Assembly (NCBI GenBank): GCA_030625775.1
Contig: DAOUQC010000026.1
Span: 1-54,424 of the forward strand
Direction: 5' to 3'
Source: Verrucomicrobiota bacterium
GTDB taxonomy: Bacteria; Verrucomicrobiota; Verrucomicrobiia; Verrucomicrobiales; DEV007
DNA: 54,424 nucleotides
Below, piece by piece: positions 9,910-54,424 of this stretch. The notes beneath the pieces are model-generated. The model was not told the DNA's origin. It did no database searches and saw only the letters and a list, made by a program, of their open reading frames with translations. Each line of letters starts with the position of its first letter. Position 1 is the stretch's first letter. A program made the translations under genes and the position numbers.

Positions 9910-11394
9910 TCACCGCGGACGTGGCATATTAGCATTCACATCTTTTCTCCACTGGTGAAGTTGACGACGAAGCTCGTTCACTTTTTCAGGATGAGCATCA
10001 GCGAGATTGTTTTGTTCTTCGATATCCGCTTTGAGATCAAACAAATCCACCGACTCGTCTTCAAGCCATTCGATCAAGGTCCAGTCACCCTGCCGAATGG
10101 CACTATAAGGCCCACAACCGTAGCTGGCATAGTGCGGGTAATGCCAGAACAGCGCGTCATGCACCGATCCACTCTCTCCTTTTAACAAGGGCACGATACT
10201 GACACCGTCGAGATGCAAATCCGGTCGCAGCGGCAAACCCACCATGTCCAGAACCGTAGGGAAAATATCGGTGAAAATCACCGGCACATCGCAAACACTT
10301 CCAGCCTGGGTCACACCCGGCCACTTGACCAACCACGGCTCGCGAACGCCCCCTTCATAGGCCCATCCCTTGCCTCCACGGAAAGGTAGATTACTGGCAA
10401 CCGGAGGATAACCCCCATTGTCAGAAGTGAAAATCACGATAGTATTGTTCTCAAGTCCCATTCGTTTCAGGCCGTCCAATAGTCGCCCGACATTAGTATC
10501 CAAGGTCTCAACCATGGCTGCATACGCTGGGTTATTCTGTTCCTGTCGGGCTTTGTTCTGTTTGAGCCCGGGCTTCGTGCCCCGGGCTATGGTGCCATCC
10601 TGCTTGAAGCTTGTCTCCCCTTCTGCTGGCAAGCCCATGCGTTTTGCCTTTCCACGATACTTTTCAACCAGTGCTTCCTTGGCCTGAATCGGCGTATGAA
10701 CATCATAAAACGGGAGATAGAGGAAAAATGGTTTGTCCTTGTTGGTCTCAATCAGTTTGAGCGCTTCACTGGTCAATCGATCACCAAGATGTTCGCCTTT
10801 TTTACCACCCTCGGCGAGTCCCGGCACCTCAGTGCCATGGTAACCCTTATGCTCTTTACTGCGCCGGTAGGGCCAGAAATAGCTGCCCGGCGCTCCCGAG
10901 CGATTGCCTCCAATGTTCACATCGAAACCCTGTTTTTCCGGAAGATAGGGAGCATCTCCCAGATGCCATTTGCCGACAAACAGAGTCGAGTATCCGGCTT
11001 CCTTTAATACTTCCGCCAAGGTGACTTCTTCAAAAGGCAATTGCATCCGCATTTTCGCCGGCAGGAATTTTCCACTCAGGGTCGGTCCGGGGATATAAGC
11101 GGTAATCTTCAAGCGGGCAGGATAGCGCCCGGTCAGCAGCGCCGCACGCGATGGAGAACAACTCATGTGTGCCGCATAACCATTGGTGAACCTCATTCCT
11201 TCGCCAGCAAGCCGGTCAAGGCTCGGTGTTTCATGAAACCTGGCTCCATAACACGCCACGTCGGCCCAGGCGAGATCGTCGGCAAGAATGATGACGACGT
11301 TGGGCCTATCCGTCGCCGCAAGCCCAAACTGACACAATCCTATCAGCGATGCGAAAATGAAAAGGGGAGTGAGCTTGCTTGGGATTCGATTCAT
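9910..11394 (-). CDS. Type I sulfatase (arylsulfatase family), secreted
   Basis: 494 residues with a signal peptide (to about residue 26). The metal-binding start (NVVIILADDLAWAD) is followed by the sulfatase signature CSPSRAALLTGR with Cys79, the residue converted to formylglycine. The second conserved block (GKWHLG) and the later metal site (TSDNGG) are present. It hydrolyses sulfate esters, probably on polysaccharide fragments, in the periplasm or on the surface. Maturation needs a formylglycine-generating enzyme, which is not in this window. It follows the PVC cytochrome by 19 bp and precedes the SGNH esterase by 20 bp, so these three are probably one transcript. Sulfate position specificity cannot be assigned. 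Confidence 0.94.
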   Translation of the reverse strand: MNRIPSKLTPLFIFASLIGLCQFGLAATDRPNVVIILADDLAWADVACYGARFHETPSLDRLAGEGMRFTNGYAAHMSCSPSRAALLTGRYPARLKITAYIPGPTLSGKFLPAKMRMQLPFEEVTLAEVLKEAGYSTLFVGKWHLGDAPYLPEKQGFDVNIGGNRSGAPGSYFWPYRRSKEHKGYHGTEVPGLAEGGKKGEHLGDRLTSEALKLIETNKDKPFFLYLPFYDVHTPIQAKEALVEKYRGKAKRMGLPAEGETSFKQDGTIARGTKPGLKQNKARQEQNNPAYAAMVETLDTNVGRLLDGLKRMGLENNTIVIFTSDNGGYPPVASNLPFRGGKGWAYEGGVREPWLVKWPGVTQAGSVCDVPVIFTDIFPTVLDMVGLPLRPDLHLDGVSIVPLLKGESGSVHDALFWHYPHYASYGCGPYSAIRQGDWTLIEWLEDESVDLFDLKADIEEQNNLADAHPEKVNELRRQLHQWRKDVNANMPRPR

Positions 11395-34173: not shown

Positions 34174-34740
34174 CTATGAGCCCGCTACCTTCTTCGGTGA
34201 GTTATTGTGCTTGATGTCCCACTCTGACAATGCCGCTTCGACATCTCCTTCCGCCCCAATATGATCCCAGAAAAAACAAAAATCCTCCTTTGCATTTTCG
34301 AGGGCAAACACCATTTTTTTCTTATCTCTCAGGAAATACTCAATATTACTGTTCACGGTACGACAATAGTCCAAAAACAAGTCTATCGGTTCACCCTCGA
34401 TTTTCCTGAATTCTCCCATCAATACACCCTCTTCATAAGCTCGTTGTATGCCGCTCTCTCTACGCTTCAGCATACTGCTTGCCACACCGACGGCCTCCCT
34501 CCTTAAATGAACATAGGAGGCTCTCGCTCCAAAGTTGGCCTCCAGCCTTCCTAACATCCAGGACAACCTATTATCAATTTCAATGTGATTCTCAGGATAA
34601 TCAAAACGATTTTGGTATAAAAGATGGGCTCGCGATTCATGGGCCGATGTATAGTTTGTAATATGCGAACACGCTTTTGCAAAAGTATAGGACCCACATC
34701 TACCTGTACTAAGAACAAATATATTCCCCCTCTTTGGCAT
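34174..34740 (-). CDS. Sulfotransferase-like P-loop protein
   Basis: 188 residues from the Met at 34740 (MPKRGNIFVLSTGRCGS). An upstream in-frame Met at 34776 would overlap the RidA gene. The start matches the PAPS-binding 5' loop of sulfotransferases (FVLSTGRCGSYTFAKA), and YVHLRREAVGVASSMLKR resembles the 3'-phosphate site (R...S). It is short for the family and appears somewhat more AT-rich than its neighbours, so it may be a compact or acquired member. It would transfer sulfate to a sugar or other acceptor in the cytoplasm. It is last in the DUF3500 operon, 17 bp after RidA. Confidence 0.65.
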   Translation of the reverse strand: MPKRGNIFVLSTGRCGSYTFAKACSHITNYTSAHESRAHLLYQNRFDYPENHIEIDNRLSWMLGRLEANFGARASYVHLRREAVGVASSMLKRRESGIQRAYEEGVLMGEFRKIEGEPIDLFLDYCRTVNSNIEYFLRDKKKMVFALENAKEDFCFFWDHIGAEGDVEAALSEWDIKHNNSPKKVAGS

Positions 34741-34757
34741 AAATAATAGACAGCAAT

Positions 34758-35216
34758 TTATTTCACCGCAGCCCATACGGCCAGCTGAACCGGTGAATTC
34801 AATGGCATTTCATGAATTCCCAAGGCCATCCGTGCATGCTCACCCGCATCTCCAAACACCTCGTATAATAAGTCTGAAGCACCATCAAGCACATCCGGAT
34901 GACCTCGAAAACCGGAACCACAATGAATATAACCCTCCACCCGAACCATCTCCCCTATCTGATCAAGATCCCCCTCCATTGCAAATTTCAACTGAGCGAT
35001 CGCATTGATCGCGCATTGCCGTGCCGCTTGGTAACCCTGCTCAACACTAACGTCCTCACCAAGGCGTCCCACACATAATAGTTTTCCTCCTACCCACGGC
35101 AACTGCCCCGATGTGACCACCAACGATCCACTGCGCTTGACCGACACATAATTCCCCACCGGTCCCGGCGCTTGTGGCAGTTCAATTCCTAGTTCTTTCA
35201 AACGTTGCTCAATCAT
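34758..35216 (-). CDS. RidA-family protein (Rid/YjgF superfamily)
   Basis: 152 residues from the Met at 35216. The frame runs 18 codons further up into the molybdoenzyme gene. It is the longer Rid subgroup of about 150 residues: a GNYVSVKRSGSLVVTSGQLP start, YQAARQCAINAIAQL mid-helix and GEHARMALGIHEMPL at the active-site arginine region. RidA proteins deaminate reactive enamine/imine intermediates in the cytoplasm; members with altered sites have other or unknown roles. It is 22 bp after the molybdoenzyme, an unusual partner for exported redox proteins. Confidence 0.9.
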   Translation of the reverse strand: MIEQRLKELGIELPQAPGPVGNYVSVKRSGSLVVTSGQLPWVGGKLLCVGRLGEDVSVEQGYQAARQCAINAIAQLKFAMEGDLDQIGEMVRVEGYIHCGSGFRGHPDVLDGASDLLYEVFGDAGEHARMALGIHEMPLNSPVQLAVWAAVK

Positions 35217-35238
35217 CTTATTCAATCGATTACTTTTA

Positions 35239-36438
35239 TCAAATTTCAACCACCCGCGGATATTGTGCATAGGCTTCTCGGCGGGTTTTTTTCAAGGCAA
35301 TCTCGTCATCGTCCTTACTCGGTTGAATATGGCCACCTTTGGAAATTCCACGGGAAACCATGGTGTGTTTTCCGGAAGTCGCGCCCCTCCATTCATAGGA
35401 GAAAAAGATCCAGCTGTGTTTGGCGCGTGGTTTCTCATCCAGCTTGGCCTTCAGCCATTTGCCCTCATCGATGCGAACCTCCACCGATTGGATATCCTCC
35501 GCATCCGGCCCCCAAACGGCTCCGTAGATCATCACACTGTCTTTGCCGTCAGCGCTTTTCTTACGTGTGGCACGTGCAATGATCGATTTCAAATTCATGT
35601 GACCGACAGAAGTTTCCTTGTAAACAATCTCGCCATCTTTTTTTCGTTCACCACGCAAAGTAACGTACTCACGCGCCATGTATTTGCCCATGTAAGGACG
35701 ATCCCAAACTTCAATGCTCTTGAGCCATTTTACATTGGCAATGCCGTAATAGCCGGGGCGGATCAGGCGCAAAGGGAATCCGTTTTTTGGACTCAGGGCT
35801 TTGCCATTCGCCTCATAAGCAAGAATTGCATCCGAAGCCAGAGCTTCGTCGATCGGAATACTACGGGCAAAATTGAAAGGGATCTCCTCCTCCTTTTTCC
35901 CCACCTTCATTTTCTCCATTTTTTTGTCATGACCATATAGAACCACCTCTCTGGCGCCCTTTTTAATTCCCGCCGCCTTGAGAAAATCTGCTAATGAAGT
36001 TCCGGTGAATTTGGCGTTGTAAATCGCCGCCATAAAACCATCCGAGGCTCCGTTGCCCGAACATTCCAGAGTCATCAAATGCTCTTTTTTAGGCAGCGCT
36101 CGAATGTCTGCCATGGATAACGATTTCGGATTCTCAATTTCACCGGAAAGCTCCAGCCGATAATCTTTTTCCTTCGGCATTTTTGGATAACCGTAGTGCG
36201 CCACAGAAAATACCTGCTCCTGAGGAGTAATCCACGTATCCAATCCCTCCCAGTCCAGCATCCCGGGTTTGGCACGAGGTGCTCCAACAAACGGAATCCA
36301 CTCTTCATTTCCTCCAGCTCCAAAAGCCGATTCAGAAAGACCTGCCATCATCATGCCTCCGGCCACCGCTGCTCCGCCTTTCAGCAGATCCCTCCTCTCC
36401 ATCGACTCACTTTTTTTTACACTGTTTTTCATAATCAT
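35239..36438 (-). CDS. Sulfite-oxidase-type molybdopterin oxidoreductase, Tat-exported
   Basis: 399 residues. A twin-arginine signal (ERRDLLKGGA, about 14-23) is followed by an oxidoreductase molybdopterin-binding domain with the Mo-ligating Cys126 in TLECSGNG, and a C-terminal Mo-cofactor dimerisation domain (about 285-390; AVWGPDAEDIQSVEVRIDEGKW). This is the layout of SoxC/SorA-type sulfite dehydrogenases and their relatives. There is no heme domain, so electrons must leave through a partner. The cupredoxin encoded 27 bp upstream is the obvious candidate. Sulfite is the likely but untested substrate. Confidence 0.9.
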   Translation of the reverse strand: MIMKNSVKKSESMERRDLLKGGAAVAGGMMMAGLSESAFGAGGNEEWIPFVGAPRAKPGMLDWEGLDTWITPQEQVFSVAHYGYPKMPKEKDYRLELSGEIENPKSLSMADIRALPKKEHLMTLECSGNGASDGFMAAIYNAKFTGTSLADFLKAAGIKKGAREVVLYGHDKKMEKMKVGKKEEEIPFNFARSIPIDEALASDAILAYEANGKALSPKNGFPLRLIRPGYYGIANVKWLKSIEVWDRPYMGKYMAREYVTLRGERKKDGEIVYKETSVGHMNLKSIIARATRKKSADGKDSVMIYGAVWGPDAEDIQSVEVRIDEGKWLKAKLDEKPRAKHSWIFFSYEWRGATSGKHTMVSRGISKGGHIQPSKDDDEIALKKTRREAYAQYPRVVEI

Positions 36439-36465
36439 TTATTTGAGGGTGTCAGGTAAGCGATG

Positions 36466-37179
36466 CTATTTGGATTCTCCAATAAGGTCATCAGGCGAGA
36501 CCACCAATTCAACTACCTTCTTATCCCCCTTCTTCACCACGACTTTCTGCTTCTTTTTCAATTTACCTGAAGGGTGAATCACAATCAGATCATATTCACC
36601 CGGCGGAACATTACGCAATTCAAATTTTCCATCAGCAGCAGTGACCACAGCAAAAGGGTGATCAAAAACATAAATCCACGCGTGCATCTGGCTGTGCAGG
36701 CCACAGCTGATATCGACCGGCGACACCTCATTTCCTGCCGAAGAAAATGTTCGAGTCAGCGATTTCCCAATTGGCGTCATGATGTTAAACGGATCCTTCC
36801 CCCCGAGTGCTGCCACATTGTGCAAGGCCTGGTCACTGTTGACAAACTCCACCTGATCACCCGCCATGATGGCGAGCACCTCGGGAAGATACTCAAAATT
36901 TTTCTGATCCATCCGCCATTTTTTTGGCTTCTGCGCCTTTGCATTTCCCAGCCCCTTGCCAGACAAACACACCAAGGCCCCGGCAAGCTCACCGCTTTTC
37001 CCATTTTTCAAATAATACCTACCGTATCGCCACTGGCGATTGGTATCCGGCTGGTATTTCAAGAAGCCTGCTATCGCTCCAGTGCCTTCCTTATCTGCCT
37101 CAGCCCCGTAAGAAACCGAATTCGACAAGAGTAAAATTGCAGCAAAGCCACCGACAAAAAATACAGCAAATGATTGCAT
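36466..37179 (-). CDS. Secreted cupredoxin-like (type 1 copper) protein
   Basis: 237 residues with a signal peptide (to about 25). The copper ligand pattern is visible: His120 in NSDQALHNVAA, then Cys159, His162 and Met165 in CGLHSQMH, the C-x2-H-x2-M order of plastocyanin-like proteins. After it comes a carboxypeptidase-regulatory-like beta segment (GKFELRNVPPGEYDLIVIHP, about 185-205) and a Lys-rich tail. Similar proteins are annotated as methylamine utilisation or plastocyanin-like in PVC genomes. Placed between DUF3500 and the molybdoenzyme with gaps of 8 and 27 bp, it probably carries electrons from the latter. Confidence 0.82.
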   Translation of the reverse strand: MQSFAVFFVGGFAAILLLSNSVSYGAEADKEGTGAIAGFLKYQPDTNRQWRYGRYYLKNGKSGELAGALVCLSGKGLGNAKAQKPKKWRMDQKNFEYLPEVLAIMAGDQVEFVNSDQALHNVAALGGKDPFNIMTPIGKSLTRTFSSAGNEVSPVDISCGLHSQMHAWIYVFDHPFAVVTAADGKFELRNVPPGEYDLIVIHPSGKLKKKQKVVVKKGDKKVVELVVSPDDLIGESK

Positions 37180-37187
37180 AACTCTGA

Positions 37188-38186
37188 TTACACCTTAGCG
37201 ATATTCACCCAACCATGCGGATGTGGGTTACCCCGGTAATGCCAGGCAAAACCCGGTCCTTCCAAGCGCCACAGATCCCAGACCCCATCATCGCCGATGT
37301 CCCCCGGCTTTCCTTTCTGGGTCAAATTATAAAACGAAAGACTCAATTCCTGAATTCCCCCGTTCGCTTCGATGATTTTCAAAGCTTCATCCACATCCTG
37401 CTTTCTATACAAACGCAACATGGACATAATCACTGCTCGAACGAGTTCCTGCTGATCGGAACTCATATCACCAACCTTCAAGCCCGGATAAGGTCCCTTG
37501 CGGTGCTCGACTTCTCTTTCGTGCGGCACCTTGCCAAGCAGGGCCTGCTTGCGTTGTGCGGGATCAAGTGCATGAAACACCTTGTTCGCGTGTTCAGCCT
37601 GATACCAGAAAACATTCCCTTTGTGAGTTTCATCCTCGTGAAAACCACCGGCTGCTTCTGACACATGTCCGTAAAACATCGTGCCGCCAAAGGCCATCTT
37701 GTCCTCAAAATTCCCGTCGGCACGCAGCGTCACGTGTCGACCGGACAGAACACATTCGAAAGCGTTGTCACCCGGCTCACCGAAAAACGAAACGCTGTAA
37801 CCACCCAGCCCATCCGCATCTTCCTTCATCTGCCGCGACAGTCTTTGATAGCCTTCTTCGCTCGTGAGACCCCGAATGACCTCATCGATCAAAGCCTGCT
37901 GCTTTTGCGGAAAGGATTCGATCTTTACTTCGGTGATCAACTTATTGAGCGTCATGTGCCCGCGAAGCTCGTGATCCACTGGAAAACAAATGCCCCGTCT
38001 CTGATCATTCGACAACAGTTGATAAAGTTCGGTCACCTTGTTCTCCGCAACAGGCGACTTACCAACCGCTGTCCAGCCTCGAGTCGCCAGAGCGGCACTT
38101 AGAGCCATGCTCCCCGTGACTTGAATGAAATTTCTACGGCTCGCCGAAAGGCATTCTGTGCATTTTTGGAAGGGAGGGGTATTCAT
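37188..38186 (-). CDS. DUF3500 protein, Tat-exported
   Basis: 332 residues from the Met at 38186, which has a GAGAA 6 bases upstream. The long upstream frame extension is discarded. A twin-arginine motif (SRRNFIQVTG) heads the protein. The rest matches DUF3500: an SLTSEEGYQRL-like region, GGYSVSFFGEPG, and a His-rich central part (GTMFYGHVSEA, GGFHEDETHKG, then WYQAEHANKVF) that could bind metal, ending with WHYRGNPHPHGWVNIA. The function of the family is unknown. Tat export suggests a bound cofactor. It is the first gene of the five-gene operon, opposite the malectin gene across a 154-bp gap. Confidence 0.82.
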   Translation of the reverse strand: MNTPPFQKCTECLSASRRNFIQVTGSMALSAALATRGWTAVGKSPVAENKVTELYQLLSNDQRRGICFPVDHELRGHMTLNKLITEVKIESFPQKQQALIDEVIRGLTSEEGYQRLSRQMKEDADGLGGYSVSFFGEPGDNAFECVLSGRHVTLRADGNFEDKMAFGGTMFYGHVSEAAGGFHEDETHKGNVFWYQAEHANKVFHALDPAQRKQALLGKVPHEREVEHRKGPYPGLKVGDMSSDQQELVRAVIMSMLRLYRKQDVDEALKIIEANGGIQELSLSFYNLTQKGKPGDIGDDGVWDLWRLEGPGFAWHYRGNPHPHGWVNIAKV

Positions 38187-38340: not shown

Positions 38341-40983
38341 ATGGCAGTCAGGATCACGAACCTCAAATCCACTTGGCAGATCAGCTTCATCGCACTCACG
38401 ATGTCTTTGATTTCATCTCTCACCTTGCCCGCTTTCGACCTACCTCTACGGATCAATACCGGCGGACCTGCCATCGGAAAACCTGGCACCCGTAATCATT
38501 GGCTTGCAAATCACGATTTTGTGAAAGGGGGAAAACCTTACTCTTTCGGCCCCGGTCACGACCTGTCCCAGGTCACCTCGCCGGGTCCAGCCAAAATTTA
38601 TGAAACAGTCCATCATCAGGACCATGTCTACAGAATCACAGATTTACCAGCGGGCGAATATCTGATTCGCTTTCATTTCACCGAAGGACACAACACCCGC
38701 AAACGGGCGATGGATTACCACATCAACGGAAAACTGCTCATCAATGATCTGAATATTCTGGCAATCACCGGCAAGCTTAAACAAGCTCACATCGTCGAGG
38801 TAAAAACCCAGCTGAATGGCGGTCAAACTCTACTGATCGAATGCCGGCAGGATTCCGGAGACGATGTGTTCGAAGCGGGGATCGAAATAATACCAATAAC
38901 TCTGGCCGAAAAAAATCCAAACTCACCCGGAATCCCCCCTCCAAAGCCGAAGACAAGGTCTATTTCACTGACAGGAACAGCAGCGAAAATACGAAAAATC
39001 ACCGGATCCCAGACTCGATTCGTATGGCTTCAAGGCTCAAAGGGGCATCATTATACCGGACCAGGAAACCTGACTCGCTTGATGGCCTTCGACACTGATG
39101 ACGACCTTGGTGAACGACAAGTCATCCCGTCAAAAAAATCTTTTTCAAAGCCGATACTCACTCCGGACGGACAAGGGATCGTTTTCAGCGACCGAAACAA
39201 AAACAATCGACATTGCTACCTTGTAAACTGGGATGGATCCAGTTTACTTGATCTTGGCAAGGGCTTCGCTTCGGATGTCTGGCAGGATCCGGATACCCAG
39301 CAGAACTGGGTTTATATACGCCGGGGGGCGGGCGGAACACAGGACCGGATTGTTCGTCGGCGACTTGATCAACCTGAAGTGGAAGAGAAAATATGGAACC
39401 GCACCAAGAACGGCCATCAGGGGGTTCCGTGGTTCCAGCTTTCAGCCGACGGCCGGAGATTCTCCAACGCCTTTCCCTGGAGCCACTGCGGTTTGGGGAA
39501 CCTAGTCAAAGGGAACTGGAAAAAGTACACCAACGGATGCTGGCCGTCCATCGCTCCAGACAACAGCTATCGCATGTTTGTTTTCTCCGGAACTCACAAA
39601 GAACTCCACCTTTACGAAGAAGGGAAAAAAAATCATCGCGCAGTGAGTTTGCTGAATATTCCTGGCCAACATAACAGTAAGGTTTATTTCCCTCGCTGGA
39701 GTAATAATGTAAGGTTTCTTACCATTTCTTCACCGGAAAATAATCCGAACTCAAAATTATTTCTTGGGAAATTTGATAGTAAATTCAAATCGATCGAACG
39801 TTGGGTCCAGGTGACCCATAACAATTACGCCGATATCTTCGGTGATGCGTGGATCAACCCTCTGGCTGGTGTGCCCAAAGAAGCCATCATGATTCGGGCA
39901 TCCCCTGAAGTGATCAAAACAGCTGATGAAAAAAAGCCTGAGATGCAAACCGAATGGCCAGGCACCTCCAAGGGCTTGATTTGGATCTGGGACAATGCGA
40001 ATGCGCAAAACGAAGCACCCGCACGGGATGGCGAAACAAAACCCTTTTCCTGTCGTGGGGAATTAAGTGGGCACGCCAGACTCGGCCGCCATTATAATCT
40101 GCTTCTCGATGGTGGTTCCTTCGAAGCAATTAACGATGCGGGAACACGAATCAGCAATGCCTGCAAGGAAACGAATACGATCACGGTGGAAGCACTCATT
40201 AAAACTTTCGACGCCAATCAGAAAGGACCGGCCCGTATCATTTCGCTGTCAAAGAACTCGAGCGAACGCAACTTCACTCTCGGGCAGAATGGAGAATGGT
40301 TGAATTTACGCCTGCGCAGCGGAAGTGACGATGCAAATGGCACCTTGCACGAAACCCGGCTTTGCAAACTGCTTCCAAATACGCCCCTTCACATCCTGTT
40401 GTCTCATCGTCCGGATGAAACCGTCTGTTATCTCAATGGTAAAGAAGTCTTCCGCAGTAATCAGCTTGACGATCTGGGCAGTTGGCAACCGATGCCGCTG
40501 AATCTTGGCGATGAAAACGGTGGCGGACGGGATTGGAAAGGAAGCCTCCAGGCGATTGCTATTTCCAACCGCTTTATAGGTCCGCAGGAAGCCGCCGAGC
40601 ACTTCAATCTGGCTTTGGCGATCTTGAAAAAACGCAAACCGGCAGTGCGCAGTGTGGTCACCACCCGACTGGTGGAAAGCTCCCCAATACCCACATTGGA
40701 GATGATGGGAACTTACCGACGCGCTTTGGTCGAAAACGTCTATGAAGTAATCAAAGTGACCAGCGGCTCCCTTCCCAAGGACACTTCACGAATTATCGTG
40801 AGTCAGTGGGTTGTGATGGACAGGAAAACCCTTCCATCGGCGGCCAGGTTAAAAGCAGGACTGACGACAACTCTCACTCTTGAATCAATGGTGGATCACC
40901 CCGAGCTTTCATCTGAATTTCGCAGCAGTGACCACAGCGAATTCAAAGCTCCTCTTTTTCACGACGTAAACTCGCACCGCTAA
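38341..40983 (+). CDS. Malectin, TolB-like propeller and LamG domains in one secreted protein
   Basis: 880 residues with a signal peptide (about 12-33). Malectin-type beta-sandwich at about 35-185 (LRINTGGPAIGK...YRITDLPAGEYLIRFHF). A TolB/WD40-like propeller at about 225-530 (ILTPDGQGIVFSDRN, FQLSADGRRFSNAFPW, YRMFVFSGTHKELHLYE). A concanavalin/LamG domain at about 590-760 (LLLDGGSFEAINDAG, ITVEALIKTFD, PLNLGDENGGGRDWKG). All three are sugar- or protein-binding folds and no catalytic signature is evident. Probably a surface or periplasmic glycan-binding protein. It faces the beta-helix gene, only 19 bp between stops. Confidence 0.82.
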   Translation: MAVRITNLKSTWQISFIALTMSLISSLTLPAFDLPLRINTGGPAIGKPGTRNHWLANHDFVKGGKPYSFGPGHDLSQVTSPGPAKIYETVHHQDHVYRITDLPAGEYLIRFHFTEGHNTRKRAMDYHINGKLLINDLNILAITGKLKQAHIVEVKTQLNGGQTLLIECRQDSGDDVFEAGIEIIPITLAEKNPNSPGIPPPKPKTRSISLTGTAAKIRKITGSQTRFVWLQGSKGHHYTGPGNLTRLMAFDTDDDLGERQVIPSKKSFSKPILTPDGQGIVFSDRNKNNRHCYLVNWDGSSLLDLGKGFASDVWQDPDTQQNWVYIRRGAGGTQDRIVRRRLDQPEVEEKIWNRTKNGHQGVPWFQLSADGRRFSNAFPWSHCGLGNLVKGNWKKYTNGCWPSIAPDNSYRMFVFSGTHKELHLYEEGKKNHRAVSLLNIPGQHNSKVYFPRWSNNVRFLTISSPENNPNSKLFLGKFDSKFKSIERWVQVTHNNYADIFGDAWINPLAGVPKEAIMIRASPEVIKTADEKKPEMQTEWPGTSKGLIWIWDNANAQNEAPARDGETKPFSCRGELSGHARLGRHYNLLLDGGSFEAINDAGTRISNACKETNTITVEALIKTFDANQKGPARIISLSKNSSERNFTLGQNGEWLNLRLRSGSDDANGTLHETRLCKLLPNTPLHILLSHRPDETVCYLNGKEVFRSNQLDDLGSWQPMPLNLGDENGGGRDWKGSLQAIAISNRFIGPQEAAEHFNLALAILKKRKPAVRSVVTTRLVESSPIPTLEMMGTYRRALVENVYEVIKVTSGSLPKDTSRIIVSQWVVMDRKTLPSAARLKAGLTTTLTLESMVDHPELSSEFRSSDHSEFKAPLFHDVNSHR

Positions 40984-41002: not shown

Positions 41003-42220
41003 TTAACGATCCTCTTTAATCACATGATTCCCTTCCACTTTGGAATCCTGTAGATTTTCATGTCCGCCTTCAGTATTGATCATCAGATTGCCACTGAACA
41101 CGATTTGTCGAGCCGGCTTTCCTTCAGTCGTCAGGGCTTTGCTCGAAAGATTAGAAAAGGTATTGCCTGAAATATTCAAAGCGGACGCACTCTCCAGCAC
41201 AATCCCACTGGCCACATTGTCTTCGGGCCGACCTTTGAATTTCCCTGCCCCAATTGATCGATTCGCAAATGTGTTGCCACTGATCGTCAACGCCCGGCAT
41301 TTGCTGTCCACCGAAACCGCACGCTTCGCCATAATGGTGAACGTATTGCCGGTGATCGAGCTGCCATGCACGTCACTCATCACCACACCGCCCTTGCGAT
41401 TAGCGGTAAAGATATTCGCACCCACGGTGGTTGCATAAGTGTCATTTTTCAATACCACCCCGATCCCCTCGCACTGCTCGATCATATTTGCCGAAATGGT
41501 GTTGCCCATGGAATTATCCACCACCACTCCATCACGCAGATGATCATCAATAATGTTACCGGTAAAGGTCAGGTTGAATCCATCCACAAATTGCATCGCG
41601 TCCCTATTCTCCTCAAACTGGGTCCCACTGATAATGGAATCGTGATTGCCAAGGATATAAACTCCCGTCCCTTTGTTATAAGTGATCAAAGCATCCGTTA
41701 AGCGCGCATCCTCCAGACAATGATCCATGTGAATGCCGTCTCCTCCATGATAACTCACTGTGACACCTTCAAGATAAATCTCATTCACCCACAAGGCATC
41801 AATGCCGTGACCTGACTTCTCATTGCCGGTGATCCGCATGTCCGACAAATGTATACGCCAGCGGTAATTGCGCTTTTTCCCTTTGGCTGATCGATCAAAA
41901 GGCTGCGGAGGAAAAAAGGCAATTGCCGCTTTGCCTTCCGTATTGGCATTGTGAATATGAGTCGCCGCGCCCGCTCCCCGGAGACGAATATCTTCACCTG
42001 TGACAAACAAAGGCTGACTGATTTCAAATTTTCCAGCCGGCAATACAACTTCTCCCCCCTCCGCTGGCAAGGCATCGATCGCTGCCTGAATGCTTGGATA
42101 TTCAATCGCCAGAACACTCACCCTGGCACCTGGCAAATTCACCTTGCCCTGTCCTGTCACCATCGACGGAGACAGCCCCATCATTCCAATCAGTAATGTA
42201 ATAAACACTGCTTTTTTCAT
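41003..42220 (-). CDS. Secreted right-handed parallel beta-helix protein
   Basis: 405 residues from the Met at 42220, with a signal peptide (MKKAVFITLLIGMMGLSPSM). The start of the helix is the pectate-lyase-3-like cap (YPSIQAAIDALPAEGGEVVLPAGKFEI). Then come about ten coils with recurring G-N-x-I/F turns (ISGTQFEEN, FTGNIIDDH, ISANMIEQC, VGANIFTAN, ITGNTFTIM, ISGNTFANR, ISGNTFSNL). This fold serves polysaccharide lyases, hydrolases and epimerases; I cannot assign catalytic residues. It lies 10 bp downstream of a decayed gene of the same fold. Confidence 0.88.
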   Translation of the reverse strand: MKKAVFITLLIGMMGLSPSMVTGQGKVNLPGARVSVLAIEYPSIQAAIDALPAEGGEVVLPAGKFEISQPLFVTGEDIRLRGAGAATHIHNANTEGKAAIAFFPPQPFDRSAKGKKRNYRWRIHLSDMRITGNEKSGHGIDALWVNEIYLEGVTVSYHGGDGIHMDHCLEDARLTDALITYNKGTGVYILGNHDSIISGTQFEENRDAMQFVDGFNLTFTGNIIDDHLRDGVVVDNSMGNTISANMIEQCEGIGVVLKNDTYATTVGANIFTANRKGGVVMSDVHGSSITGNTFTIMAKRAVSVDSKCRALTISGNTFANRSIGAGKFKGRPEDNVASGIVLESASALNISGNTFSNLSSKALTTEGKPARQIVFSGNLMINTEGGHENLQDSKVEGNHVIKEDR

Positions 42221-45496: not shown

Positions 45497-46984
45497 ATGA
45501 AAATTCCGCACCCCACCTTCAATCTTCTACTACTCAGCCTTTTTTTGATCACATCCTCTTTTGTTACCGCAAACAAAACGAATGCTGAAACAACAAAACC
45601 TAACATCATTTTCATCCTCGCCGATGACCTCGGCTATGGGGATCTCGGATGTTACGGTCAGCGCATCATCAAAACTCCACGCCTCGACCAAATGGCCGCC
45701 GAGGGCATGAAGTTCAGCCAATTCTATGCTGGTGCCACTGTTTGCGCTCCATCGCGATCAGTGCTGATGACTGGTCGGCATCTTGGGCATACCCGGGTTC
45801 GCGGCAACACCCCCATCCGAGCCGATCAATCCCTTCACGACAAAGATGTCACCATCGCCGAAGTTTTAAAGAAGGCAGGATACGCCACCGCCGCCATCGG
45901 CAAATGGGGCATCGGCGAAGAAGGCACTGATGGTCAACCCTGGTTACAGGGATTTGATCTGTTTTACGGTTACCTCAATCAACTCGCCGCACACAATTAT
46001 TATCCGCCCTATCTCTGGCGCAACGGCAAAAAAGAAGAACTGAAGAACGAAGTCGATCTCATCCATGTCGGCAAAAAACCCCGCTTCTGGGGAACCGGCG
46101 GCATCGCGACAAAGAAGGTCGAATACTCACACGACCTCTTCATGAAAGAGGCGCTGAATTTTATCGATCAGAATAAGGACCGACCGTTTTTCCTCTACAT
46201 GCCCATCACTATTCCTCACGCCAATAACGAGGCCGGGCGCAAGCTCAGTGACGGTCAGGAAGTGCCTGACTATGGCATCTATGCCGACAAAGACTGGCCG
46301 AACCCGGACAAAGGACAGGCGGCAATGATCACCCGAATGGATACTGGTATTGGACAAATCCTCGATCGAATTAAAAAGCTCGATATCGATAAAAACACCG
46401 TCGTCATGTTCAGCTCTGACAACGGCCCCCATGATGAAGGCGGACACGATACCGACCGCTTCAACCCCAGCGGCCCCTTGCGCGGCATGAAGCGTGATCT
46501 TTACGAAGGCGGCATTCGCGTTCCCTTGATCGTTCGCTGGTCCGGCGTCACACCCGCCGGAACCACCTCCAATCACATCGGCTACTTCGGAGACTTGATG
46601 GCCACCGCTTCTGAACTGGCCGGCACCAAACCCTCCACCCCGAACGACAGCATCAGTTTTGTTCCCACGATCAAAGGCGATAAAAAAAATCAAAAGGAAC
46701 ATCCCTACCTCTACTGGGAATTTTATGAACGTGGTAGCAAACAAGCAATTCGAATGGATAAATGGAAAGGCGTGCGCTTGCCTGGGTTCACTGGAAAAAT
46801 CGAACTCTACGATCTGGAAAGTGATCTCGGTGAAGCCCATAATATTGCTGCCGACCATCCTGATATCGTCACCAAAATCGAAGCTGCTATGAAAGAAGAG
46901 CACACCCCTGCGGCGATCTGGAAACCCGGCGGGAAACCTGCTGACCAAAAACCGAAACCCGGCCACGGAAAAAAAACCTTCTGA
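45497..46984 (+). CDS. Type I sulfatase (arylsulfatase family), secreted
   Basis: 495 residues with a signal peptide (about 5-25). Metal-binding start [18 protein letters not shown], then the signature [12 protein letters not shown] with Cys83 as the formylglycine precursor, then [10 protein letters not shown] at the second block and [11 protein letters not shown] for the late metal site. The C-terminus is Lys/Pro-rich. It resembles the arylsulfatase A-type proteins common in Verrucomicrobiota and probably acts on polysaccharide sulfate. It heads a plus-strand cluster with the GHL10 glycosidase 46 bp downstream and a metallopeptidase. Confidence 0.94.
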
Positions 46985-52918: not shown

Positions 52919-53021
52919 TTCAGTCAAACAACATCGATTCATGATCTGCACATTATCCTGTGGCGAGCTGTAAACCTAGAAGAAAAACTTTGGTAACAAA
53001 CAGGATCACGCAAATGCGTAA

Positions 53022-53060
53022 TTTGAGTTACTTGCTCAAAAATCACTCACCCTGTATTCT
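53022..53060 (+). promoter_or_regulatory. Inverted repeat and promoter-like pair before the third sulfatase
   Basis: TTTGAG (53022-53027) and CTCAAA (53035-53040) form a 6-bp inverted repeat with a 7-base spacer. Its right arm overlaps TTGCTC (53032-53037). TATTCT (53055-53060) follows at 17 bases. The ATG at 53068 would then lie nearly at the transcript start, so a leaderless message is possible. The support is weak. Confidence 0.25.
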
Positions 53061-53067
53061 AGTGTCG

Positions 53068-54424
53068 ATGAAACGTTTTCTCTGTCTGTCCCTCTCCTTT
53101 TTTCTTCCACTATTTATGAGCGGCACAGGCTCCGCAGCGCCCGGCTCTTCTCGCCCCAACGTTCTCTTCATTGCCCTCGATGACCTCAACGACTGGGTCG
53201 GCTGTCTTGGCGGAAACCCGCAAACGATCACCCCAAATATTGATCGCCTGGCTGCCAGCGGAGTATTATTCACCAACGCCCATTGCCCCGCTGCTTCCTG
53301 CAACCCATCCCGCAGCGCCATCATGACCGGCCTGTCACCGCACCGCTCAGGCCTTTACGACAACGGTCAAAAAATGCGCGAAGTTTTGCCCAAAGCAGAG
53401 CTGCTTCCTCAACACTTTCGCAATCATGGCTATCGAGCGACCGGTTCCGGGAAAATCCTGCACTACTTTATCGACGCTCGATCATGGGATGAATACTTCC
53501 CCGCCAAGGAAAGCGAGAATCCTTTCCCTCCACACATGCCCTGGGGAAAACGTCCGAAATCCCTCCCTCGTGGCGGAGCCTGGCAATATACCGAAACAGA
53601 CTGGCACGCCTTTGACGTGAGCGACAAGGAATTCGGCGGAGACTGGCTGGTGACAAAATGGGTTGGCGAACAACTTGAACGCAAACACGAAAAATCCTTC
53701 TTCCTTGCCTGCGGAATCTACCGACCTCACGAACCCTGGTATGTACCGAAAAAATACTTCGACCCCTTTCCCTTGGATGACATCCAACTCCCCCCCGGTT
53801 ACAAAGAAGGTGATCTCGATGACCTGCCGCCTGCCGGAAAAAAACGTGGACCGAATCGATACTTTGCTCACATCCGGAAACAAGCCCAATGGAAAAAAGG
53901 GATTCAGGCCTATCTCGCATCCATTCACTACGCCGACGCCATGCTCGGACGCGTTTTGGATGCGCTCGACAAAGGCCCGAACAAGGACAATACCATCGTC
54001 GTTCTGTGGAGTGATCACGGTTGGCACCTCGGTGAAAAACAACACTGGCAGAAATACACCGCTTGGCGCGCCGCTACCCGTGTGCCTCTGATCATAAAAG
54101 TTCCGGAAAAAATCGCCCCCGGCCTGTCTGAAGGCACGACTGCAGGCAGTATTTGCAAACGTCCTGTCAATCTGCTCAGCCTCTACCCCACTTTAAGCGA
54201 GCTCGCCGGCTTGCCTCCCAAAGCTGACAACGACGCACCCAGTCTTATCCCGCTATTAAAAAATCCCGAAACGGAATGGAAACACCCTTCCCTCACTTAT
54301 CTTGGCGACCCGGGTACTTATGGTCTCAGCACAGAAAACTGGCGCTATATCCACTACGCCAACGGCGATGAGGAACTTTACGATACCATCAACGACCCCT
54401 ACGAGTGGAACAACCTGGCCGCAA
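53068..54424 (+). CDS. Type I sulfatase, iduronate-2-sulfatase-like (cut by window edge)
   Basis: 452 residues are visible from the ATG at 53068; the frame is still open at the right edge. Signal peptide to about residue 24. The start NVLFIALDDLNDWVGCLGG is the DDLN variant seen in iduronate-2-sulfatase-like and choline-sulfatase-like proteins. The signature is CNPSRSAIMTG with Cys78. LACGIYRPHEPWYVP and WSDHGWHLGEKQHWQKYT are typical of the iduronate-2-sulfatase-like group. Nearly complete: only the C-terminal tail is missing. Divergent from the GDPD-esterase fusion over about 150 bp. Confidence 0.93.
   Translation, partial: MKRFLCLSLSFFLPLFMSGTGSAAPGSSRPNVLFIALDDLNDWVGCLGGNPQTITPNIDRLAASGVLFTNAHCPAASCNPSRSAIMTGLSPHRSGLYDNGQKMREVLPKAELLPQHFRNHGYRATGSGKILHYFIDARSWDEYFPAKESENPFPPHMPWGKRPKSLPRGGAWQYTETDWHAFDVSDKEFGGDWLVTKWVGEQLERKHEKSFFLACGIYRPHEPWYVPKKYFDPFPLDDIQLPPGYKEGDLDDLPPAGKKRGPNRYFAHIRKQAQWKKGIQAYLASIHYADAMLGRVLDALDKGPNKDNTIVVLWSDHGWHLGEKQHWQKYTAWRAATRVPLIIKVPEKIAPGLSEGTTAGSICKRPVNLLSLYPTLSELAGLPPKADNDAPSLIPLLKNPETEWKHPSLTYLGDPGTYGLSTENWRYIHYANGDEELYDTINDPYEWNNLAA

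Follow-up and report, generated by a model that had tools for sequence, protein, structure and literature searches.

It is proposed, with a probability of roughly 0.6, that the functional unit of the gene run studied here consists of an exported cupredoxin and a Tat-exported molybdoenzyme of the sulfite-oxidase fold, that its conserved companions are the genes for a sulfotransferase-like and a beta-helix protein, that the genes for a DUF3500 protein and a RidA protein are lineage-specific neighbours, and that copper takes the electrons released by the enzyme. After export, the molybdoenzyme would oxidize a small, probably sulfur-containing substrate at its molybdenum in the periplasm. Single electrons would then pass to the type 1 copper site of the cupredoxin encoded with it, and this carrier would hand them on to the respiratory chain. 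What the sequences show are the fold families, the molybdenum-binding cysteine, the copper ligand set, the export signals and the conservation of the genes in two species, whereas the substrate, the path of the electrons and any part played by the sulfotransferase-like protein are inferred.

Five open reading frames follow one another on the minus strand of the window (the whole stretch of 54,424 nucleotides that was analyzed), and the spacing of 8, 27, 22 and 17 bp reported in the preliminary description is reproduced with ATG starts at 38186, 37179, 36438, 35216 and 34740, the last two of which are inner starts taken for the RidA and the sulfotransferase-like gene, respectively. The run comprises a Tat-type DUF3500 protein (37188..38186), an exported cupredoxin with a C-terminal carboxypeptidase-regulatory-like domain (36466..37179), the molybdoenzyme (35239..36438), a Rid/YjgF family protein (34758..35216) and a cytosolic sulfotransferase-like P-loop protein (34174..34740), which starts at the methionine of MPKRG. 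Tat-type motifs can be read in the translations of the molybdoenzyme (ERRDLLK) and of the DUF3500 protein (SRRNF), and the RidA assignment is supported by both PF14588 (119.5 bits) and PF01042 (33.6 bits), above gathering thresholds in each case. Upstream of the run are found a malectin and laminin-G-like protein encoded on the plus strand (38341..40983), which lies between the DUF3500 gene and a right-handed beta-helix protein of the Beta_helix/NosD type encoded on the minus strand (41003..42220). The open reading frame of the latter extends to 42526 as listed, the methionine of MKKAVFITLL being its presumed start. The sequence AAGGTG, which resembles a ribosome-binding site for the cupredoxin gene, lies within the final DUF3500 codons and, together with the gap of only 8 bp, makes co-transcription plausible in this organism, a point that counts against treating DUF3500 as a mere neighbour. 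Promoter and terminator scans of the gene run returned matches at the level expected by chance from shuffled sequence. Elsewhere in the window, the translations reveal sulfatase-like proteins at 9910-11394, 45497-46984 and 52960-54424, which would be fitting for a lifestyle on sulfated polysaccharides.

The gene content of the conserved unit is defined by a sister species, the MAG Dive96_bin10.62 (G061). On its contig JAJRVS010000097.1, the genes for the beta-helix protein (74% identity with the window protein), the cupredoxin (65%), the molybdoenzyme (81%) and the sulfotransferase-like protein (73%) are contiguous and in this order on one strand, the beta-helix gene adjoining the cupredoxin gene, while the block contains no DUF3500, RidA or lectin-domain gene. 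As the sister block is unbroken inside a contig of 23.9 kb, the absence of DUF3500 and RidA does not reflect an assembly gap. The remaining open reading frames of the window gave a single weak match (22% identity) on this contig, and the block thus looks like a self-contained unit. In the window, the beta-helix gene, the fourth member of the conserved block, is still located upstream, but the lectin-domain and DUF3500 genes intervene, and RidA separates the molybdoenzyme gene from the sulfotransferase-like gene. The five-gene run is real, yet what is conserved is the block and not the five genes as such. Its carriers are two genomes of one genus, so that, from their sequences, gain of DUF3500 and RidA here and loss in the sister species are indistinguishable. 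In a third genome of the genus, which is 73% complete, the closest molybdoenzyme relative shares only 29% identity. DUF3500 and RidA are most simply understood as neighbours on the same putative transcript. The view that RidA is a partner of the system is abandoned, as it is missing from the sister block and no RidA relative was found around DUF3500 in the loci clustered below.

Assignment of the sulfotransferase-like protein has been made on motifs (STGRCGS and VHLRR..VA.SM.KR) and on the genomic setting of its relatives. Beyond these features, the label given in the preliminary description gains no HMM support: the protein has neither a Pfam or other HMM match nor a PDB sequence match, its low-confidence structural model (pLDDT 52) gave only weak matches to P-loop proteins of the G-alpha type, and a scan of viral contigs returned nothing. 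Its relatives were identified in genome G089 (56% identity), Pseudanabaena (52%) and Streptomonospora (41%). The first is encoded in a locus that also contains genes for CysD, CysN, a glycosyltransferase and a flippase resembling Wzx (L126 784-8193, G089:C19), and the two others among glycosyltransferase and FkbM methyltransferase genes. Motifs and setting point to a putative glycan sulfotransferase, and glycan sulfation is a more likely role for this protein than handling of the molybdoenzyme product. Since these glycan loci are devoid of molybdoenzymes, they favour a reading in which a single transcript would serve two functions, that of a copper-molybdenum redox pair and, independently of it, that of a gene for sulfation at the cell surface, a reading compatible with the proposed copper-molybdenum unit and refining it. 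However, the sulfotransferase-like gene has been kept downstream of the molybdoenzyme gene in both genomes despite their differing flanks and the RidA gene, and we give this separation of functions slightly less than an even chance.

Regarding the copper protein, the ligand set H120...C159-x2-H162-x2-M165 recognized in the preliminary description proved to be invariant in 11 relatives, with amicyanin-like spacing. A profile of these relatives matches plastocyanin (E 1.6e-9), pseudoazurin (8e-8) and amicyanin (7.5e-7), the E-values over structures of these proteins ranging from 1.6e-9 to 1e-6. Ligands and profile matches together identify the protein as a predicted type 1 copper protein. Its relatives are encoded beside a porin-like protein and a HAMP/cyclase sensor, or inside a cytochrome oxidase operon, and others form one domain within much longer proteins (roughly 900-1,800 residues). 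The family is, judging from these settings, a general copper module and not a marker of molybdoenzymes, and because many relatives lie in unrelated operons, a carrier role is unspecific. At three loci (L113 2015-4318, L129 and L131), a cupredoxin relative shares its operon with a porin-like outer membrane protein and a HAMP/guanylate-cyclase sensor, a combination that may serve to sense copper or redox state.

The molybdoenzyme belongs to the sulfite-oxidase family (PF00174, Oxidored_molyb, 147.4 bits against a gathering threshold of 24). On alignment with plant sulfite oxidase (1ogp, whose numbering is used for plant residues), C126 corresponds to the molybdenum-binding cysteine of the CAGN motif, and H81 and Y258 are retained. 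In sulfite-oxidizing enzymes (SorA, SorT and the plant and animal sulfite oxidases), R51 and the arginine pair that follows the molybdenum-binding cysteine are conserved arginines of the sulfite (anion) pocket. In human sulfite oxidase, R160 is such an arginine (PMC10574614). In the window enzyme, these arginines are missing: V79 occupies the position of R51, and the active-site alignment shows the loop bearing the arginine pair to be deleted. The description of this domain as that of sulfite dehydrogenases is retained for the family and not for the type, as the NCBIfam scores are far under the curated cut-offs, with 166.5 bits against 420 for SoxC, the best match, 145 against 600 for SorA and 106 against 570 for SorT. 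Outside the genus, the nearest enzymes are Rhizobium plasmid proteins annotated as sulfite oxidase (e.g., CP053208.2), which share ~42% identity over almost the full length and lack the same arginines. Sulfite is doubtful as a substrate, given the two missing anion-pocket arginines, the scores far under the SorA, SorT and SoxC cut-offs, and closest relatives that are themselves untested. SoxC of the SoxCD sulfane dehydrogenase (2xts) has the same fold and, like the window enzyme, lacks the arginine pair in a shortened active-site loop, but it retains an arginine where the plant enzyme has R51. Close homologues, sharing >40% identity along the protein, were limited to the two of this genus when 142 genomes of the order and 387 of the phylum were searched, and a non-exhaustive scan of the genome collection with two short peptide patterns retrieved the sister MAG alone. 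Synthesis of the molybdenum cofactor in this organism is plausible, since moaA is present above its curated cut-off in its own genome.

A copper carrier encoded beside such a molybdoenzyme is already known. In Sinorhizobium meliloti, sorT, SMc04048 (a cytochrome c) and azu2 (a pseudoazurin) are transcribed as an operon, and the pseudoazurin, a type 1 copper protein, has been suggested as electron acceptor of SorT (PMC3511301). In the window, as in this SorT/SorU/Azu2 system, the genes for a periplasmic molybdoenzyme of the sulfite-oxidase fold and for a type 1 copper protein lie together, and by this analogy copper is the most likely electron acceptor. The preliminary description had proposed a periplasmic oxidation system using copper instead of heme, and this part is supported, without DUF3500 and RidA, in the form of an exported molybdoenzyme beside its likely copper partner, a second species having kept the two genes adjacent and the sulfotransferase-like gene linked to them. 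Against the copper carrier, the Rhizobium relatives lack, where annotated, a neighbouring cupredoxin and, as described above, cupredoxin relatives often belong to unrelated operons. Where annotated, no cupredoxin, sulfotransferase-like or DUF3500 gene was found beside these Rhizobium enzymes. Adjacency of cupredoxin and molybdoenzyme genes was likewise not found in rhizobial plasmids, the two genes being hundreds of kb apart in the four plasmid records that contain both.

The S. meliloti precedent, the sulfite-oxidase fold with its molybdenum-binding cysteine and the adjoining cupredoxin gene would also fit an ordinary sulfite dehydrogenase of the periplasm that passes its electrons to copper, working like SorT and Azu2. 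We consider this unlikely in view of the substituted and deleted pocket arginines and of the low family scores. Moreover, in contrast to the SorT system, the genes of the window block include no c-type cytochrome equivalent to SorU, the molybdoenzyme lacks two anion-pocket arginines, a carboxypeptidase-regulatory-like domain is added to the cupredoxin, and sulfotransferase-like and beta-helix genes are linked to the pair. The proposed copper-molybdenum unit could instead be extended to a subfamily of the sulfite-oxidase fold, common to Rhizobium and a single marine genus of Verrucomicrobiota, that would have lost the sulfite-pocket arginines and would oxidize a substrate other than sulfite; in this genus, a dedicated cupredoxin would be the sole recipient of the electrons, and the sulfotransferase-like gene would tie the reaction to the metabolism of sulfated surface compounds. 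Such an extension is speculative, and taken as a whole it is unlikely.

The DUF3500 protein belongs to a family (PF12006, 70.9 bits against a gathering threshold of 27.2) that is present in 75 of the 124 good-quality genomes of the order. Among the sampled genomes of the order, comparison of two tables by reading disclosed, beyond the window, no DUF3500 gene less than 10 kb away from a molybdoenzyme of this kind; the co-occurrence on which the preliminary description had staked its proposal is thus conserved neither in the sister species nor across these genomes. Clustering of the neighbours of 18 DUF3500 loci and the window likewise revealed no recurrent neighbour, and a search of plasmids for DUF3500 gave no match. 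Directly ahead of DUF3500, two other genomes of the order carry a gene for a small cytochrome c (L070 7360-8777, 17 bp apart, and L109 7523-9254). The genome of the window also contains a second DUF3500 copy, 37% identical and ended by the contig edge (L076 1-738, G000:C99:19-726).

The preliminary description made DUF3500 the third component of a periplasmic oxidation system with the cupredoxin and the molybdoenzyme, the product being processed by RidA and the sulfotransferase-like protein, and although the tight same-strand spacing, the Tat-type motif, the invariant histidines of DUF3500 (H151, H188, H322 and H324) and the cytochrome c gene adjoining it in two genomes are in favour of such a system, it fails on the sister block, which has neither DUF3500 nor RidA, on the occurrence of DUF3500 beside the molybdoenzyme in the window alone and on the lack of any recurring neighbour, and is to be regarded as very improbable. 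With sister synteny and the neighbours across the order ruling out DUF3500 as a conserved partner of the molybdoenzyme, its gene is probably a mere neighbour of the copper-molybdenum block.

The statement that nothing is known of the role of DUF3500 no longer holds. AN10530 of Aspergillus nidulans, a fungal protein with the same named domain, is proposed to be a dioxygenase of the gallate pathway converting 1,2,3,5-tetrahydroxybenzene (PMC12388069). The DUF3500 profile found nothing significant among PDB sequences. The AlphaFold model of the window protein (pLDDT 75.9, pTM 0.71) matches ApmL (9x86), a dehydratase of amipurimycin biosynthesis, with an E-value of 6.6e-10 and a Z-score of 18.7 over 240 residues, the predicted fold being common to both proteins at just 16% identity. 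Two further structures, 5boi and 4pw1, were set aside as fold relatives, with Z-scores of only 3. The invariant histidines make a metal site possible in the predicted structure, part of it in or beside a region (with H174, E184 and H188) that is largely of low confidence in the model.

Collectively, the cassette looks like a small variant of the known copper-linked systems of the sulfite-oxidase type. For the DUF3500 family, these data remove a redox role that had been argued from gene neighbourhood alone, and ApmL offers a recent structural relative as a starting point for learning what DUF3500 does.
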